DNA of 30,332 bases from a virus. This document shows, piece after piece, positions 10,208 through 21,642 of this stretch. The notes below the pieces were generated by a model that was given only the letters and a program-made list of their open reading frames with translations, was not told the DNA's origin and searched no databases. The first letter of the stretch is position 1, and each line of letters begins with the position of its first letter. The DNA lies in the IMG/VR virus record IMGVR_UViG_3300006104_000010, positions 1 to 30,332 of that record. One strand, given 5' to 3'. Made by a program: the position numbers and the translations under genes.

Positions 10208-11941
10208 TCACCGGCGCTCGCGCAGGATCGCCCAGGCGACGCAGTGCAGCTTCGTACAATCGCCGTAGTGATCGCTCTCTACTTTCTTCCAAGCGAACGG
10301 GGTCGATCGGCTGTTTTTGTTCTCGATCAGCATCTGACCCGAATGACCGGCGATGAAATCGCGGGTGACATCCTCGGGGAAGTGAAGCAACGGAGGGAGT
10401 TTCTTTTGGATGCGGTCGAGGTAGAGGTGGGTTTTCCAGGTATGGTCGCTGTAGCTGAAAAGGACAATGCCCATGCCCGGCAGCGGGCTGGGGTGGAAAG
10501 GTTTGAACGTGCTTTCGGCGCCTTTGGACGGGTAGTAGAGGTTATTCGACCGGGCGCAGATGGAATACACGCGCTCGCTGTTGAATCCGCTGTCTATTAA
10601 TCCCGCGATCGGTCGAACCTGACCGACGCCATTGGGCATGAGGTATACGCGGGCGGCTAGGAAGGTGTCGCTGACCAGCTCGTCGACCTCGGCGACCTCT
10701 CCCCAATCGATGACCCAACTCTCGCCGGTCGCGATGCGGGCTTCGACGGTCCAGTGGGTGCGCGTCCCTCCCGGATCGGCGCAAAGTGTCAGGATGGGAG
10801 CCTGTCCATCGATGACGGAGGCGGGCGGTATCTGGCGCTGGCGATAGCCGCCACGGAGATCGAGGAGGCTGTCGTCCTTAATGGTGGTGGCGCGGTCTTC
10901 CCAAGGTAATCCGAGGTAGGTGTTGTAGAAATCGTGCAGGCCGCCGGGGCTGTCGCGCTTCTGAAGGAAGAGCTTGGCCAGTTCTCCCCAAGTTGACTGG
11001 GGAGAATACATGGCATTCAGATGGCAGGAGATGTGGTCGCGGGGTGCGGCTAGATTCCCCTGGATCCATCGGCCACCGGCGACGAGGCGGCGTTGAATTT
11101 CCTGAGACCAGAGTCCCCCGCACTTCTCGCATTGATACATCGCCGAATCGGCCACACCGTCCAAATCCCATGCCCCGTCCGGACCGCGCAGCTCGTCAGA
11201 CCATTTGATCTGCTCAAACCGTAGGTGTTGCCATTTCCCGCAATCGGGGCACTCGACGTGGAATCGGTGTTGGCTGCCAGCGGTGAACTGGCTGTAGATG
11301 GCGCCGGTCGCCACGGTGGGGGTGGATACCAGGACGCGCTTGCAGATGGATCGGTAGAAGTTGGTTCGGGCCATCGCCAGCTCGAGGGATGGTGCCTCGG
11401 TGGCGGAGGCGTCGGGCCATTTGTCCACCTCGTCGCAGAAAAGGTAACGGGTGGGGCGTGAAGCTAGATTGGCCTCGGAATTCGATCCGACTAGCTTGAC
11501 GGTGCAGCTTTTGAACTGCATTTCCGTTTTCTTGAAAAGATCGGGATCGTCGGGAAGCTGTGACCGAAGTGCCGGGCAAGATCGGACGCGGGGAATCAGC
11601 TCACGCTCGGACCAGCTTTTGGCATTTTCGGCGGTCGAAGTGACGTAGAGAATGGGACCGGGATCCTCGGCGACGGCGTACTGGATGAGATTCGCAAGAA
11701 GGGTGGTTCCGCCGATCTGGGCGCTTTTCACAAAAGTGATCTGGCGGATTTTTCGGTCACCAAACCAGAAATGGAGCTGGCGGAGGTACGGGGTGAAGTC
11801 GCAATTAAACCGACCGGGGCGAGGGGAGAAGCGAGCGTCGATGACGATCTCACGCTCCGCCCATGTCAGCGGATCGGGGCGTTCCCTGGGCTCCCACATG
11901 GAAGCCAGATCAGATTCAAGTCGCTGGAGTGCCGGTGACAT
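10208..11941 (-). CDS. terL: Terminase large subunit (GpA family)
   Basis: This packaging motor and nuclease is 577 residues from the preferred ATG at 11941; the open frame reaches 12040, inside the small terminase gene. It has a Walker A-like VKSAQIGGTT (residues 71-80), Walker B YLFCDE (166-171), and a Cys pair set CPDC (231-234) and CEKC (271-274) of the GpA type. The nuclease region has Asp in LCADPGG and LIDSG. The start overlaps the small terminase stop by 26 bases, implying coupled synthesis. GpA-family terminases cut at cos sites in lambda, but the end type here cannot be read from an already closed assembly. Confidence 0.95.
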   Translation of the reverse strand: MSPALQRLESDLASMWEPRERPDPLTWAEREIVIDARFSPRPGRFNCDFTPYLRQLHFWFGDRKIRQITFVKSAQIGGTTLLANLIQYAVAEDPGPILYVTSTAENAKSWSERELIPRVRSCPALRSQLPDDPDLFKKTEMQFKSCTVKLVGSNSEANLASRPTRYLFCDEVDKWPDASATEAPSLELAMARTNFYRSICKRVLVSTPTVATGAIYSQFTAGSQHRFHVECPDCGKWQHLRFEQIKWSDELRGPDGAWDLDGVADSAMYQCEKCGGLWSQEIQRRLVAGGRWIQGNLAAPRDHISCHLNAMYSPQSTWGELAKLFLQKRDSPGGLHDFYNTYLGLPWEDRATTIKDDSLLDLRGGYRQRQIPPASVIDGQAPILTLCADPGGTRTHWTVEARIATGESWVIDWGEVAEVDELVSDTFLAARVYLMPNGVGQVRPIAGLIDSGFNSERVYSICARSNNLYYPSKGAESTFKPFHPSPLPGMGIVLFSYSDHTWKTHLYLDRIQKKLPPLLHFPEDVTRDFIAGHSGQMLIENKNSRSTPFAWKKVESDHYGDCTKLHCVAWAILRERR

Positions 11942-12521
11942 CGGGGGCCGGTTCCTTTTGGTTCCATGGAGTCGAGGACGACGCGGCAGCCAGCTCACGG
12001 AGGATGGCGACCACCTCTTCCCTGACGATTTCGGAAACATCCGAAGTGGAATCGATGCGCGCTGCCAGCACGTCGGGGAGGTTTTCCATGAGTTGCTTGG
12101 CCATTGCCATGTTACCCAGGATGAATTCGGAGACTTTGGAAACCTCGACCAGCTTTCCGGAAGCGGTAAAAAGTTTCAGGTTGTTTTCTGAGACGAGCGT
12201 CCAAAGCTTGTGGGCTTCGATGGAGGCTTTCAGAAGAGTCGGGAGGGAATTCATGTCGCCCCTGGCTTCCGCCTGATCACAAAGAACGGAAAGACGAGCG
12301 TGGCGCACCGCTGCGGCCTGCTCGGTTTCCTCCGGCGTCATCGGTTTTGAATTGGCTTCGGGTCGTGCGAAGGAAAACTGGGAATCCTGGGCACGGGATC
12401 GAAGGAAATCGCGCCAGCGAGGATCGTCGAGGTTGCGCCAGTTACGAACCGCACGCACGGAAACGGAATGTACCTTGGCACATTCTTCAATCAAGGCCGC
12501 TTCGTGACGGGATTTCCGCAT
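11916..12521 (-). CDS. terS: Terminase small subunit (putative)
   Basis: This 201-residue DNA-recognition subunit overlaps and precedes the large subunit. The N-terminus has a helix-turn-helix-like segment (ALIEECAKVHSVSVRAVRNW), as in Nu1-type small terminases. The middle is helical (oligomerisation) and the last 25 residues are a flexible Ser/Thr/Pro tail that could contact the motor. The start ATG is preceded by AGGAAGTC. A 13-base motif repeated twice lies directly upstream (12541-12575) and could be a packaging-related binding site. Function is assigned by position and HTH, not by close sequence recognition. Confidence 0.82.
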   Translation of the reverse strand: MRKSRHEAALIEECAKVHSVSVRAVRNWRNLDDPRWRDFLRSRAQDSQFSFARPEANSKPMTPEETEQAAAVRHARLSVLCDQAEARGDMNSLPTLLKASIEAHKLWTLVSENNLKLFTASGKLVEVSKVSEFILGNMAMAKQLMENLPDVLAARIDSTSDVSEIVREEVVAILRELAAASSSTPWNQKEPAPDVTGTPAT

Positions 12522-18589: not shown

Positions 18590-18693
18590 CGGCCACCTCC
18601 GATCTTGGAAAACAATCCAGCCAAAAGACCGGCACACTCCTCACGCCCGATCCAAAGGACCAGCGCCATCACGCCGAAAAAGATGGCGATCAT
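18586..18693 (-). CDS. Early microprotein 1 (35-residue membrane protein, operon head)
   Basis: The first gene of the leftward early operon starts at ATG 18693, preceded by GGGAGGTGCCCG. The 35 residues begin MIAIFFGVMALVLWIG, a strong membrane span, and end FSKIGGGR. The longer frame to 18783 would extend into the attP region and lacks a ribosome site. Such tiny membrane proteins at the head of early operons often act on the host envelope, but that is only a suggestion. Confidence 0.7.
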   Translation of the reverse strand: MIAIFFGVMALVLWIGREECAGLLAGLFSKIGGGR

Positions 18694-18785
18694 CGGGCAC
18701 CTCCCAAGGCTTGCGCCTGTGCTGTAATTCCTGCACACTGCCTGTCCAATCGATGAAAAACTACAGCTCCAAATTCCCCACAATT
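18694..18785. other. Leader between attP and the early operon
   Basis: These are ninety-odd bases with no gene. The early leftward promoter should lie here or within attP, but I see no convincing -35/-10 pair. A CCACAA-T-TTGTGG palindrome (18778-18790) overlaps the first integrase arm repeat and could be an operator. Confidence 0.45.
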
Positions 18786-18952
18786 TGTGGAACTTGTGTG
18801 GAACCGAGTTGTAAATCGTTGATTTAGACTAGAATAAACTACCCTGTGGTGTAACGGTAACATTGTTTTGGATGGTTTTGGGGTTGGTTTCTCTCTGTAG
18901 GGTTTGTTTTTTTTTACTTTTTCTCTCTCTTTTGTGTGGAACTATGTGGAAC
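18786..18952. other. Probable phage attachment site (attP) with integrase arm sites
   Basis: Four identical TGTGGAAC boxes lie in two pairs: 18786-18793 and 18797-18804 (11 bases apart), and 18935-18942 and 18945-18952 (10 bases apart). Between the pairs lies a tRNA-like sequence at 18840-18862. Paired, helically phased repeats on both sides of a tRNA-identical core, directly upstream of an integrase gene, is the lambda-type attP arrangement (P arm, core, P' arm). A small palindrome TAAATC-gtt-GATTTA (18812-18826) lies in the P arm. The repeats are seen; the role is inferred. Confidence 0.75.
18840..18862 (+). other. tRNA-like 5' fragment (probable tRNA-Gln), candidate attP core
   Basis: The 23 bases read as a tRNA 5' end: a seven-base acceptor half starting with T (TACCCTG), then TGGTGTAACGGTAACA. 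The latter fits U8, a D-stem with four pairs, A14, G18-G19 and A21. TTTTGGA, which fits a Gln (TTG) anticodon loop, follows a few bases later, but the anticodon stem and T-arm do not form, so it is not a working tRNA. It most likely matches a host tRNA gene used for integration. Confidence 0.6.
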
Positions 18953-18961
18953 TCTTGAATC

Positions 18962-20155
18962 ATGTCCTACCTGATCAAGAAAAAGAGGTCGCCGTACTGG
19001 TATCTCCGCAGCCGTGATTTGGAGACGGGGCGATGGGTTGAGAAATGCACGAAGCTCCGTCATGACGATGCGAAGGAATCGGCGAAGGCGATGAAGGAGG
19101 CCGCCAAGGCCACGACCGGCGAGGTGATTGCCAGACCCAGGCAAGGGGAGAATTTCTCCGAATGGGTTCCCGACTACATTCGCCAGCATTACGAAGGGAA
19201 ACCGCTCACGCAGCTCCGCAACCTTTATTTCTGGCGCACGATCCACGTCTTCCTCCACGAGAATGGCATCAGGCACCCCCGCGAGATCCGCTATGAGCAC
19301 GCTGCGGCCTACATGGCGTGGAGGAAGGGACCCGATGGCAACAACGCCGCCCACAACACGGCCCGAAACGAAGTGAAATTCCTCGCTTTCCTCATGAGCG
19401 AGGCGATCCGAAGGGAGCTGGCCGAGCGCAATCCCATCGCCCTTGCACGCATCGAGCTGGCTCCTGCTAAAGCCAAGAGGGAAATCTCCGACGCGGAGAT
19501 CGCGGCCTTCCGAAAGGAGTTTGAAAAGGAGGAGTCGTGGATGGGAACGGCCTTCGAGTTGCTGATCAATCTCGGTTGCCGATTCACCGAGGCAAGGGTG
19601 TCCAAGGAACGCATCGATTTCGACCGACTGACGATCCAACTCACCGATTCCAAGCGTGATGCCCTCGATCCGAGGAAATACTTTACCGCGCCAATCTCCG
19701 AGCAGTTGGCGACCTTCCTGAAGACGATTAACTGGTACGACGGACACACCATGCCGGTTCCGACCCGCATGATGAACCGAAATTTCAATCGGGCGCTCCA
19801 TCGTGCTACTCCAGGCGTGACGAGTCATTGTTGCAGGGTTTCCTTTATTTCACGGTGCCATCGAGCCGGGCTCTCCGAGCACGAAGCGATGCGGTTGGTG
19901 AATCACTCGACGAGGATGGTCCACCGGCTTTACTCGAAGCTGAACGTCGAGGACGCACGGACCGCGATGATGAAGGTGCCTTTGCCCCCGCCTCCTGGGC
20001 GAGGAACTGCCGTACCCAGCGAAGGGTCGTCTTCTTCCCGAAAAAAGGGCAGCCGAGCTTCTTCAGCCCCCCGAGGTCGACAGGGGACATCCCGACGAAC
20101 TCGGAAAGATGCCGGGGGAACTCGAGGCGGTCGGGGTCGATCTGCGGGATCATAA
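18962..20155 (+). CDS. int: Tyrosine-family integrase
   Basis: This 397-residue site-specific recombinase would insert and excise the phage at attP. The catalytic residues are readable: Arg207 (LGCRFTEAR), Lys231 or Lys239 in the beta-hairpin, His289-x-x-Arg292 (SHCCR), His315 (VNHST) and the nucleophile Tyr324 (HRLYSKL). The N-terminal ~170 residues carry arm/core-binding domains. The catalytic fold ends near residue 340. The last ~58 residues are low-complexity Pro/Arg/Gly/Ser and lie antisense to the conserved domain of the excisionase-like gene, suggesting the original stop was lost. The ATG is 10 bases after the last arm repeat. Confidence 0.95.
   Translation: MSYLIKKKRSPYWYLRSRDLETGRWVEKCTKLRHDDAKESAKAMKEAAKATTGEVIARPRQGENFSEWVPDYIRQHYEGKPLTQLRNLYFWRTIHVFLHENGIRHPREIRYEHAAAYMAWRKGPDGNNAAHNTARNEVKFLAFLMSEAIRRELAERNPIALARIELAPAKAKREISDAEIAAFRKEFEKEESWMGTAFELLINLGCRFTEARVSKERIDFDRLTIQLTDSKRDALDPRKYFTAPISEQLATFLKTINWYDGHTMPVPTRMMNRNFNRALHRATPGVTSHCCRVSFISRCHRAGLSEHEAMRLVNHSTRMVHRLYSKLNVEDARTAMMKVPLPPPPGRGTAVPSEGSSSSRKKGSRASSAPRGRQGTSRRTRKDAGGTRGGRGRSAGS
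19845..20153 (-). CDS. Putative excisionase / HTH protein nested antisense in int
   Basis: This is a 102-residue frame from ATG 20153 (an in-frame GTG at 20162 is the alternative), wholly inside the integrase gene on the opposite strand; its start codon overlaps the integrase stop. Residues ~13-55 look like a real winged/excisive HTH (HLSEFVGMSPVDLGGLKKLG, then TTLRWVRQFLAQEA), similar to Nu1/MerR-type excisionases. From ~60 on it is Ser/Arg low complexity opposite the integrase active site. It lies 15 bases after the leftward RHH gene, forming a two-gene unit. Excisionase is inferred from location and fold. Confidence 0.65.
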   Translation of the reverse strand: MIPQIDPDRLEFPRHLSEFVGMSPVDLGGLKKLGCPFFGKKTTLRWVRQFLAQEAGAKAPSSSRSVRPRRSASSKAGGPSSSSDSPTASLRARRARLDGTVK

Positions 20156-20168
20156 AAAACACGGGATT

Positions 20169-20321
20169 TTACTTTTTCGGGGTGCCGTAGGTTTTCTTGA
20201 TCGCCTTACGGACGAGGTCGGCGACCTTGAGATCTTCCTGCGCTGCCAGCCTGCGGAGGTGCATGATTACTGGCTCGGCAACTCGCACATTGATTCTTGA
20301 TTCCTTAACGATTCCGTTCAT
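20169..20321 (-). CDS. Ribbon-helix-helix repressor, leftward (50 residues)
   Basis: This short gene runs from ATG 20321, with AAGGG just upstream, to TAA 20169. The sequence ESRINVRVAEPVIMHLRRLA followed by AAQEDLKVADLVRKAIKKTY has the RHH pattern: a short basic strand, helix A, a turn and helix B with the LVRKAI motif. Length and charge match Arc/CopG-type DNA-binding dimers. It is divergent from a second RHH gene and cotranscribed with the excisionase-like gene, suggesting the Cro-like arm of a lysis-lysogeny switch. The family assignment is by pattern; the regulatory role is inferred. Confidence 0.75.
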   Translation of the reverse strand: MNGIVKESRINVRVAEPVIMHLRRLAAQEDLKVADLVRKAIKKTYGTPKK

Positions 20322-20418
20322 GGAGCCCTTTGTGCCACGAATGGCGCCAACGTAGCAAGCAAAAATTTAAGCAAAATGATTATTTGATTTTGTGACCGAA
20401 GGGGGCACATTGTGCCCT
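20322..20418. promoter_or_regulatory. Divergent control region between two RHH genes
   Basis: This is a 97-base AT-rich spacer between divergent DNA-binding genes, so it must hold two opposed promoters. I can see many A/T tracts (20355-20390) but no unambiguous -35/-10 pair. TTTGTGCC (20329-20336), half of the palindrome at 20403-20417, sits close to the leftward start, so both starts are flanked by the same half-site. Confidence 0.65.
20403..20417. promoter_or_regulatory. Palindromic operator GGGCACA-T-TGTGCCC
   Basis: A perfect seven-base inverted repeat around one central base ends one base before the rightward RHH start codon. Binding here would block that gene's initiation. Similar short palindromes are typical targets of RHH dimers and tetramers. 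Confidence 0.75.
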
Positions 20419-20637
20419 ATGGCATTAACCGCAATGATACGCGCCAAAGTGGAACCTTCCATGAAGGCAGAATTAGAACGCCTTGCTCGCGAAGAAGGCC
20501 CGGGGGTAACCGTTTCTGATTTAGTCAGAAGGGCTGTCCACCATGTTTATTTTAAGGAAAAGGTAACGCTTTACCCCTTGGAAGAGATTTCAGCCCTCCG
20601 GGCGGCTGAGGAACCCAAAAAGTCGAGGAAGGGCTGA
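20419..20637 (+). CDS. Ribbon-helix-helix repressor, rightward (72 residues)
   Basis: ATG 20419 is preferred over an in-frame GTG at 20392, because the operator palindrome would otherwise be coding and because AGGGGG stands 13 bases upstream. It begins MALTAMIRAKVEPSMKAEL followed by a helix, a Gly-Pro-Gly turn and VSDLVRRAVHHVYF: strand, helix, helix as in CopG/Arc/RelB-type proteins. The C-terminal ~25 residues are charged and could mediate interaction. It is the candidate lysogeny repressor or its antagonist. The next gene on the same strand follows after 48 bases. Confidence 0.75.
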   Translation: MALTAMIRAKVEPSMKAELERLAREEGPGVTVSDLVRRAVHHVYFKEKVTLYPLEEISALRAAEEPKKSRKG

Positions 20638-20651
20638 TTTTAGCCTTCCCC
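20624..20651 (+). terminator. Hairpin overlapping the rightward RHH stop
   Basis: GGAAGGGCT pairs with AGCCTTCC around a GATTTT loop with one bulge. No T run follows on the plus strand, so it may attenuate transcription into the membrane protein gene rather than terminate fully. Confidence 0.4.
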
Positions 20652-20685
20652 ACCGGATGCCGTTTGTATCACGAATAGAGACATC

Positions 20686-20904
20686 ATGGGAACCATTACA
20701 AAGACCGGAAAGTGCAAGGTTTGTGAAAAGCAAAGCCGTTTTGAAAAGCAAACCCCTGCCCACCTCGTTCATTTCATCCTGTCGCTGGTTACAGCCGGAG
20801 CGTGGCTTCTTGTATGGATTCCCGTCACCTTATGGAAAGGGATGCACGGTTTCCGATGCGTGAATTGCGGATCCAAACCCGCATTCTCCACTTGGCTTCA
20901 CTAG
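20686..20904 (+). CDS. Zinc-ribbon membrane protein, candidate lysogeny-expressed gene
   Basis: This 72-residue protein has C-x2-C near the N-terminus (Cys10, Cys13) and C-x2-C near the C-terminus (Cys58, Cys61). They are separated by a hydrophobic helix HFILSLVTAGAWLLVWIPV. The two Cys pairs could complete one zinc site with both ends on the same face. The layout, a split zinc ribbon around one span or hairpin, recurs in small phage and bacterial proteins. It lies behind the rightward RHH gene on the same strand, the expected place for prophage-expressed functions such as superinfection exclusion. It converges with and overlaps the minus-strand peptidase by four bases. Confidence 0.68.
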   Translation: MGTITKTGKCKVCEKQSRFEKQTPAHLVHFILSLVTAGAWLLVWIPVTLWKGMHGFRCVNCGSKPAFSTWLH

Positions 20905-21153
20905 CGCTCCACGCGCCGCCATCCGTCGAGCCAAAGAAGTGCGGAAAGTCGGTTGGCGTAAGCGATCACGTCGATCTCGGGGGCGTCTGGCAGGAGAAGG
21001 TGAAGCCCCTCATGAATCACGGTATCGAGGCGTTCACGGGGGGCCTTGCGGTGCCACGACGATCTGATCCGGGGCGATGGCAAGGCCCATCGCTTTCTCT
21101 CGTCCCAACTTCCTTTCTGTCAGCTTGAGTTTGCGAGGAAGTTTTTTAGCCAT
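20901..21153 (-). pseudogene. HExxH (SprT/Zn-peptidase-like) gene with +1 frameshift
   Basis: The ATG at 21153 overlaps the upstream stop (ATGGCTAA) and encodes MAKKLPRKLKLTERKLGREK, typical of short phage metallopeptidase-like proteins. This frame ends at TGA 21034, directly after a run of six C. In the +1 frame the sequence continues RERLDTVIHEGLHLLLPD (HEGLH zinc motif) to TAG 20901. With five instead of six C the protein would be a continuous ~83 residues. It is either a real mutation, a sequencing error or a programmed +1 shift. HExxH proteins of this type have unknown substrates. Confidence 0.7.
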
Positions 21154-21331
21154 CGATCTCCTCCTGAATGCGGAGCCTGATCATGTCCATGAAGTCATCG
21201 AGACGCATGGATAGCTCGTCGGGATCGCTGGTGATGCAGCGCAGGCGGAATGGTAGCTGAATGCCCTCGATCTTGACCGCCAGATCGATGTTCCAATCGG
21301 TGCGGGGGCAGCGTGGGGCGACCGTGCTCAT
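21146..21331 (-). CDS. Hypothetical small protein
   Basis: This is a 61-residue protein between two overlapping neighbours (ATGA with the upstream stop, eight bases with the downstream start), so its frame is reliable. It contains two or three strands (DWNIDLAVKIEGIQLPFRL) and an acidic helix (DELSMRLDDFMDMIRLRIQ). No family is recognised. Its context is accessory genes after the lysis cassette. Confidence 0.72.
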   Translation of the reverse strand: MSTVAPRCPRTDWNIDLAVKIEGIQLPFRLRCITSDPDELSMRLDDFMDMIRLRIQEEIDG

Positions 21332-21642
21332 GCTTTATTGAAATGCCAGACGGCCAGACATCCACGGCCCACATGGATGCGAAACTTTTTCCGCTGAAGG
21401 ATTCCCTTGTTCAGAAGGTGGGTGACCCGTGCGAACATGGTGGTTTTTGCCACCCCAGCCATTTTGGACATTTCCTGAATTGTCAGCCATCCTTCGGGAA
21501 CCTCGTCAGGAGTTCCCATGCCGTTGGATTCGGAGAGGATCTCCATTAACCAATCATTGGCCGACTTGGGCGCGGTTTTTTTGATTGCAGGCTTCTTTTT
21601 CATCATTGGAATTCGGTTATTCCCTAAAAAGGGAGACGCCAT
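21328..21642 (-). CDS. Winged-helix-like DNA-binding protein
   Basis: This 104-residue protein starts from ATG 21642, which overlaps the phosphoesterase stop and has AAGGGGAAG upstream. ATG 21606 is an alternative, giving a start with MMKKK. After a Lys-rich leader the sequence reads LTIQEMSKMAGVAKTTMFAR followed by VTHLLNKGILQRKKF, a helix-turn-helix and wing as in MarR/ArsR-type or replication-relaxase-type regulators. The C-terminal strand is VGRGCLAVWHF. It may regulate late or accessory genes; target unknown. Confidence 0.75.
   Translation of the reverse strand: MASPFLGNNRIPMMKKKPAIKKTAPKSANDWLMEILSESNGMGTPDEVPEGWLTIQEMSKMAGVAKTTMFARVTHLLNKGILQRKKFRIHVGRGCLAVWHFNKA

Follow-up and report, generated by a model that had tools for sequence, protein, structure and literature searches.

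Phages of the lambda type have overlapping xis and int genes that are read from one strand. Excisionases with a MerR-like winged helix-turn-helix (wHTH) fold, such as Pukovnik Xis (4j2n), TorI (1z4h) and RdfS (8dgl), are small wHTH proteins encoded beside a tyrosine integrase. Another comparable arrangement is that of the AlpA-type regulators and excisionases of phage-inducible islands, also small wHTH genes located downstream of int; according to PMC11773190, alpA is needed for the excision of the EcCIMP1 island. A review of antisense coding overlaps indicates that in overlapping genes of viruses the domains may be positioned so that they do not coincide (PMC7457138).

The DNA considered here, called the window, is a 30332-base IMG/VR virus record that contains terminase, portal and endolysin genes. 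At its integrase locus a small wHTH gene is convergent with int and overlaps it in antisense, which distinguishes it from the MerR-like wHTH excisionases, and its sequence is too divergent for a library match. For the AlpA systems, the EcCIMP1 passage of PMC11773190 mentions no overlap of alpA with int in antisense, and the sequences of their proteins do not match that of the window protein. The domain of one gene lies opposite an unconstrained part of the other, as in antisense overlapping genes with segregated domains (PMC7457138); in contrast to other segregated overlaps, both products are folded, a single functional module is proposed for them, and many phages have kept the pair. Searches of the open literature turned up no paper describing int and xis as a convergent pair in antisense. 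The features of the locus are as follows.

10208-12040: large terminase
11916-12521: small terminase, beside the large terminase (PHROG 57, E 1.2e-5)
18783-18952: probable attP, located 5' of int (paired 11-bp direct repeats and a tRNA-like block)
18962-20155, plus strand: tyrosine integrase, 397 aa (PHROG 1 integrase, E 1.6e-35; 20-relative alignment; AlphaFold2 fold to residue ~337)
19982-20155, plus strand: residues 341-397 of the integrase, a disordered tail that crosses the wHTH domain in antisense (pLDDT <50; inverted codon periodicity at 341-366; shorter homologues)
20063-20065, plus strand: TCA (Ser368) at the position of the int stop TGA of relatives (codon comparison)
19845-20153, minus strand: wHTH gene for a putative excisionase (102 aa if started at ATG 20153; stop 19845; alternative start GTG 20162)
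19983-20153, minus strand: conserved wHTH domain, residues 1-57 (alignment; AlphaFold2 pLDDT 87; pN/pS 0.08-0.42 within groups)
19845-19982, minus strand: C-terminal tail of the wHTH protein, facing H315 and Y324 of the integrase (within-group pN/pS of 1.5-4.0 in the minus frame)
20169-20321, minus strand: small ribbon-helix-helix (RHH; CopG/Arc-like) gene that immediately precedes the wHTH gene (PHROG 876 transcriptional repressor, E 3.4e-4)
20392-20637, plus strand: second, divergent RHH gene (PF01402 RHH_1, E 4.7e-5, above the family cutoff)

The integrase and the gene on its opposite strand

The integrase is catalytically complete: R207, K231, H289, R292, H315 and Y324, which form the R-K-H-R-H-Y set of tyrosine recombinases, are invariant in the 20 aligned relatives. 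In the AlphaFold2 model the protein is ordered up to a helix at residues 329-337, and residues 349-391 and 393-395 have pLDDT values below 50, in agreement with the first-pass annotation, which had placed the end of the fold near residue 340. Within groups of relatives, the pN/pS ratio of this fold is 0.11-0.33. Beyond it, at residues 341-366, changes at codon positions 1/2/3 in the window's subgroup are 6/21/4, compared with 171/123/372 upstream. Because the codon-position periodicity is inverted there, it is the wHTH frame that governs this DNA, and the integrase tail is its passenger.

The minus-strand ORF is a real gene whose domain is under purifying selection. Residues 1-57 are modelled as a wHTH (mean pLDDT 87) with helices at 13-20, 24-33 and 44-56 and a short hairpin, the arrangement of a MerR-like winged HTH, and the consensus of the aligned domain is IDPDRLxFPxxLAxxxGLSxNEIxxLKRxGCPFFGRKTTLRWVRxFL. 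Within groups, pN/pS is 0.08-0.42 in this domain and 1.5-4.0 beyond residue 57, so that both frames of the pair are selected; the selected domains of the two proteins abut and do not coincide, and signs of constraint by both frames on shared bases are confined to the window's subgroup. The earlier claims of a genuine wHTH gene on the strand opposite the 3' end of int, and of conserved domains each facing the tail of the other gene, are therefore borne out by selection in the gene's own frame, by the confident fold, by 37 further contigs and by the position of the wHTH tail opposite H315 and Y324. The excisionase- or Nu1-type HTH domain that had been proposed for the N terminus is supported as a predicted fold by the model and its structural neighbours.

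As regards these neighbours, VIA-align gave Z scores of 5.3-6.9 for phage terminase small subunits and Nu1, the nearest fold, 5.6 for Pukovnik Xis, 5.3 for TorI and 4.1 for RdfS; the top matches are packaging proteins, and Z values below 8 may reflect a common arrangement. Foldseek returned no significant match to the model (E-values ~1). Direct searches with the window protein against Pfam, PHROG and PDB sequences gave nothing credible, tblastn found no match in the INPHARED phages, and in plasmids only matches with E ~5 were obtained.

Related to this strand, another minus ORF of 304 aa (18914-19828) lies antisense to nearly all of int in exact codon register, and comparable frames of ~290-340 aa are seen in many relatives. 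It was rejected as a gene, since in that register only TTA, CTA or TCA would stop the frame, and it is probably a by-product of the lack of these codons in int.

Conservation of the pair and origin of the complete overlap

A scan with the integrase C-terminus yielded 80 related phage loci, 26 of which carry a wHTH gene of the window type. Scanning with the wHTH alignment raised the total to 37 contigs besides the window, including three Verrucomicrobia metagenome-assembled genomes (MAGs), and in all 37 the gene is next to the integrase, convergent with int and overlapping its 3' end. The remaining, distant integrases (27-33% identical to that of the window where aligned) have a different-looking small wHTH gene at the same place, and one or the other gene is found at the int 3' end in 78 of the 80 loci. 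The two exceptions are L072, which is truncated at the end of its contig, and L046, which is without the gene; around 4230-4520 of L046, both the wHTH and RHH genes are absent and the next HTH gene abuts int. A single antisense phase occurs in 115 of 115 locus records (some contigs being counted twice), with open-frame overlaps of 83-377 nt. Homologues sharing the ~397-residue end and lacking a conserved minus frame were not encountered: most end earlier, and the minus frame is conserved wherever the close integrase clade is found.

The divergent counterparts were first chosen by position. Common descent with the window family is not supported by sequence, because the profile-profile comparison gave a probability of 2%. 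In the largest divergent group, pN/pS is 0.12-0.31 in the domain and ~1.45 in the tail. An NCBIfam search of these counterparts gave nothing useful, and one of them, outside the largest group, matches PHROG 66 'excisionase and transcriptional regulator' (E 1.1e-5); the family search that had been advised for the minus frame thus found no significant match for the window protein itself and one for a positional counterpart. Among 388 genomes from the phylum of the Chthoniobacter MAG, the wHTH gene was detected only in that MAG; another genome encodes a distant integrase and shows no detectable wHTH match in the stretch examined.

The RHH genes at 20169-20321 (minus) and 20392-20637 (plus) are divergent, recur in many relatives although not in all, and constitute a possible repressor pair. 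A scan of 18600-21400 for sigma-70-like promoters found no sites.

Complete containment of the wHTH gene within int occurs only in the window phage and one 98%-identical relative (L002). Codon comparison among relatives showed that the TGA ending int, when read on the other strand, falls within CTC AAG, which encodes Leu-Lys in the wHTH protein. In the window and L002 the Leu30 codon has changed from CTC to CTG, which is silent on the minus strand; because of this replacement, int reads TCA (Ser368) and gains 30 residues, up to a TAA (20153-20155) that overlaps the ATG of the minus gene. Both substitutions between the window and L002 in the overlap are silent for the wHTH protein and non-silent for the integrase, and the length of the integrase tail varies among homologues. 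Complete containment is consequently a derived state, reached when a substitution without effect on the wHTH protein removed the int stop. The first-pass annotation had described the minus gene as lying wholly inside int, with the start codon of one gene overlapping the stop codon of the other; both descriptions hold for the window phage and L002, and neither is the conserved state, since it is here that the ancestral int stop was lost.

The tail of the wHTH protein shows a different behaviour in the window's subgroup. In most relatives 171 third-position changes of int fall opposite this tail, close to the median of 180 for upstream stretches, and the tail looks unconstrained. In the window's subgroup, 16 such changes are found over 40 codons, compared with at least 40 in any upstream stretch. 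The change point fits best at int codon 287, which precedes the minus stop (~codon 295) by eight codons. Over int codons 287-335 (~19820-19966), third-position changes in this subgroup are lower by about threefold. This suppression may reflect a functional wHTH tail, another DNA element or chance in few lineages. Judged from these substitution patterns, the wHTH tail is mostly a passenger of the coding for the integrase active site, except perhaps in the window's subgroup.

Attachment site and host context

In phage Mx8, attP lies inside the 3' end of int. Such a location was rejected for the window, where the repeats and the tRNA-like block sit 5' of int: the block CCTGTGGTGTAACGGTAAC (18843-18861) is flanked on each side by a pair of 11-bp direct repeats (18783-18804 and 18932-18952), and the probable attP extends over 18783-18952. 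The tRNA-like block is common to relatives, whose direct repeats differ in sequence and keep the same layout. Distant relatives have instead a block resembling a tRNA 3' end upstream of int. On the prophage-bearing contig of a Chthoniobacter flavus MAG (L117, 9168-9490), the host gene prfB (release factor 2) is located within ~315 bp upstream of the int start, and a sequence like the 5' half of a threonine tRNA lies between prfB and int.

Function of the wHTH protein

The product of the minus ORF is best read as a small wHTH protein of the MerR/excisionase type, and most probably as an excisionase (Xis) or recombination directionality factor (RDF), encoded convergently and in antisense to the int 3' end. 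This function rests on fold, position and linkage, because the window protein has no Pfam or PHROG match and Foldseek gave E-values around 1. According to this reading, the wHTH protein would act together with Int at attL/attR and favour excision, and transcription of its gene would run antisense into int, lowering int expression whenever the wHTH gene is on. Both the excisionase activity and the antisense control of int are inferred.

The main alternative, appreciably less probable, is that the protein mainly controls transcription at the lysis-lysogeny switch, in the manner of Cox, AlpA or Cro and together with the RHH repressors, any role in excision being indirect. It draws on the RHH genes that flank the wHTH gene in the window and many relatives, on the same fold in MerR/BldC-type regulators and on the title of PHROG 66, which names both activities. 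However, the RHH neighbours are missing in L018, L028, L106 and L117, yet the wHTH-int pair stays, and the linkage is to int rather than to regulators. Linkage also counts against a packaging (Nu1- or small terminase-like) DNA-binding protein: although the top structural matches are small-terminase DNA-binding domains of phages and 6hn7 (pathogenicity-island packaging redirection), the gene is not beside the large terminase, where a separate small terminase is already present. It is because the phage has its own small terminase and the linkage is to int that a recombination directionality factor is favoured, and a packaging role seems highly improbable. A spurious antisense frame is hardly credible: long antisense frames do arise by chance in G+C-rich genes, as the 304-aa example in another frame of int illustrates, but the wHTH domain reaches past int in nearly all relatives, is under purifying selection in its own frame and has a confident fold.

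A separate question is whether the overlap has a meaning of its own. That it has none, and represents convergent genes placed tail to tail with drifting stops, has about an even chance of being correct and is compatible with the excisionase reading. The tails behave as passengers, both in the high pN/pS of the wHTH tail and in the inverted periodicity of the integrase tail; tail lengths vary, and containment arose by silent stop loss. Against this, the arrangement and the antisense phase are constant in all relatives found, and the window's subgroup shows a deficit of wobble changes in int opposite the wHTH tail. The opposite extreme is rather doubtful: an obligate antisense int/xis module in which one stretch of DNA encodes the integrase active site and, on its complementary strand, a selected tail of the excisionase. 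In such a module the two genes could not be transcribed efficiently at the same time, the phage would be either integrating or excising, and in the window's subgroup even the part of the wHTH protein that faces the active site would have a function.

Antisense overlapping coding genes seldom have comparative backing, which is provided here by dozens of phage contigs, and the locus offers a clear case in which the stop codon of one gene was lost via a silent change in the other. If the wHTH protein is an excisionase, these genes would supply excision factors for poorly known Verrucomicrobia-associated phages, and two genes and one attP would make up a compact switch.
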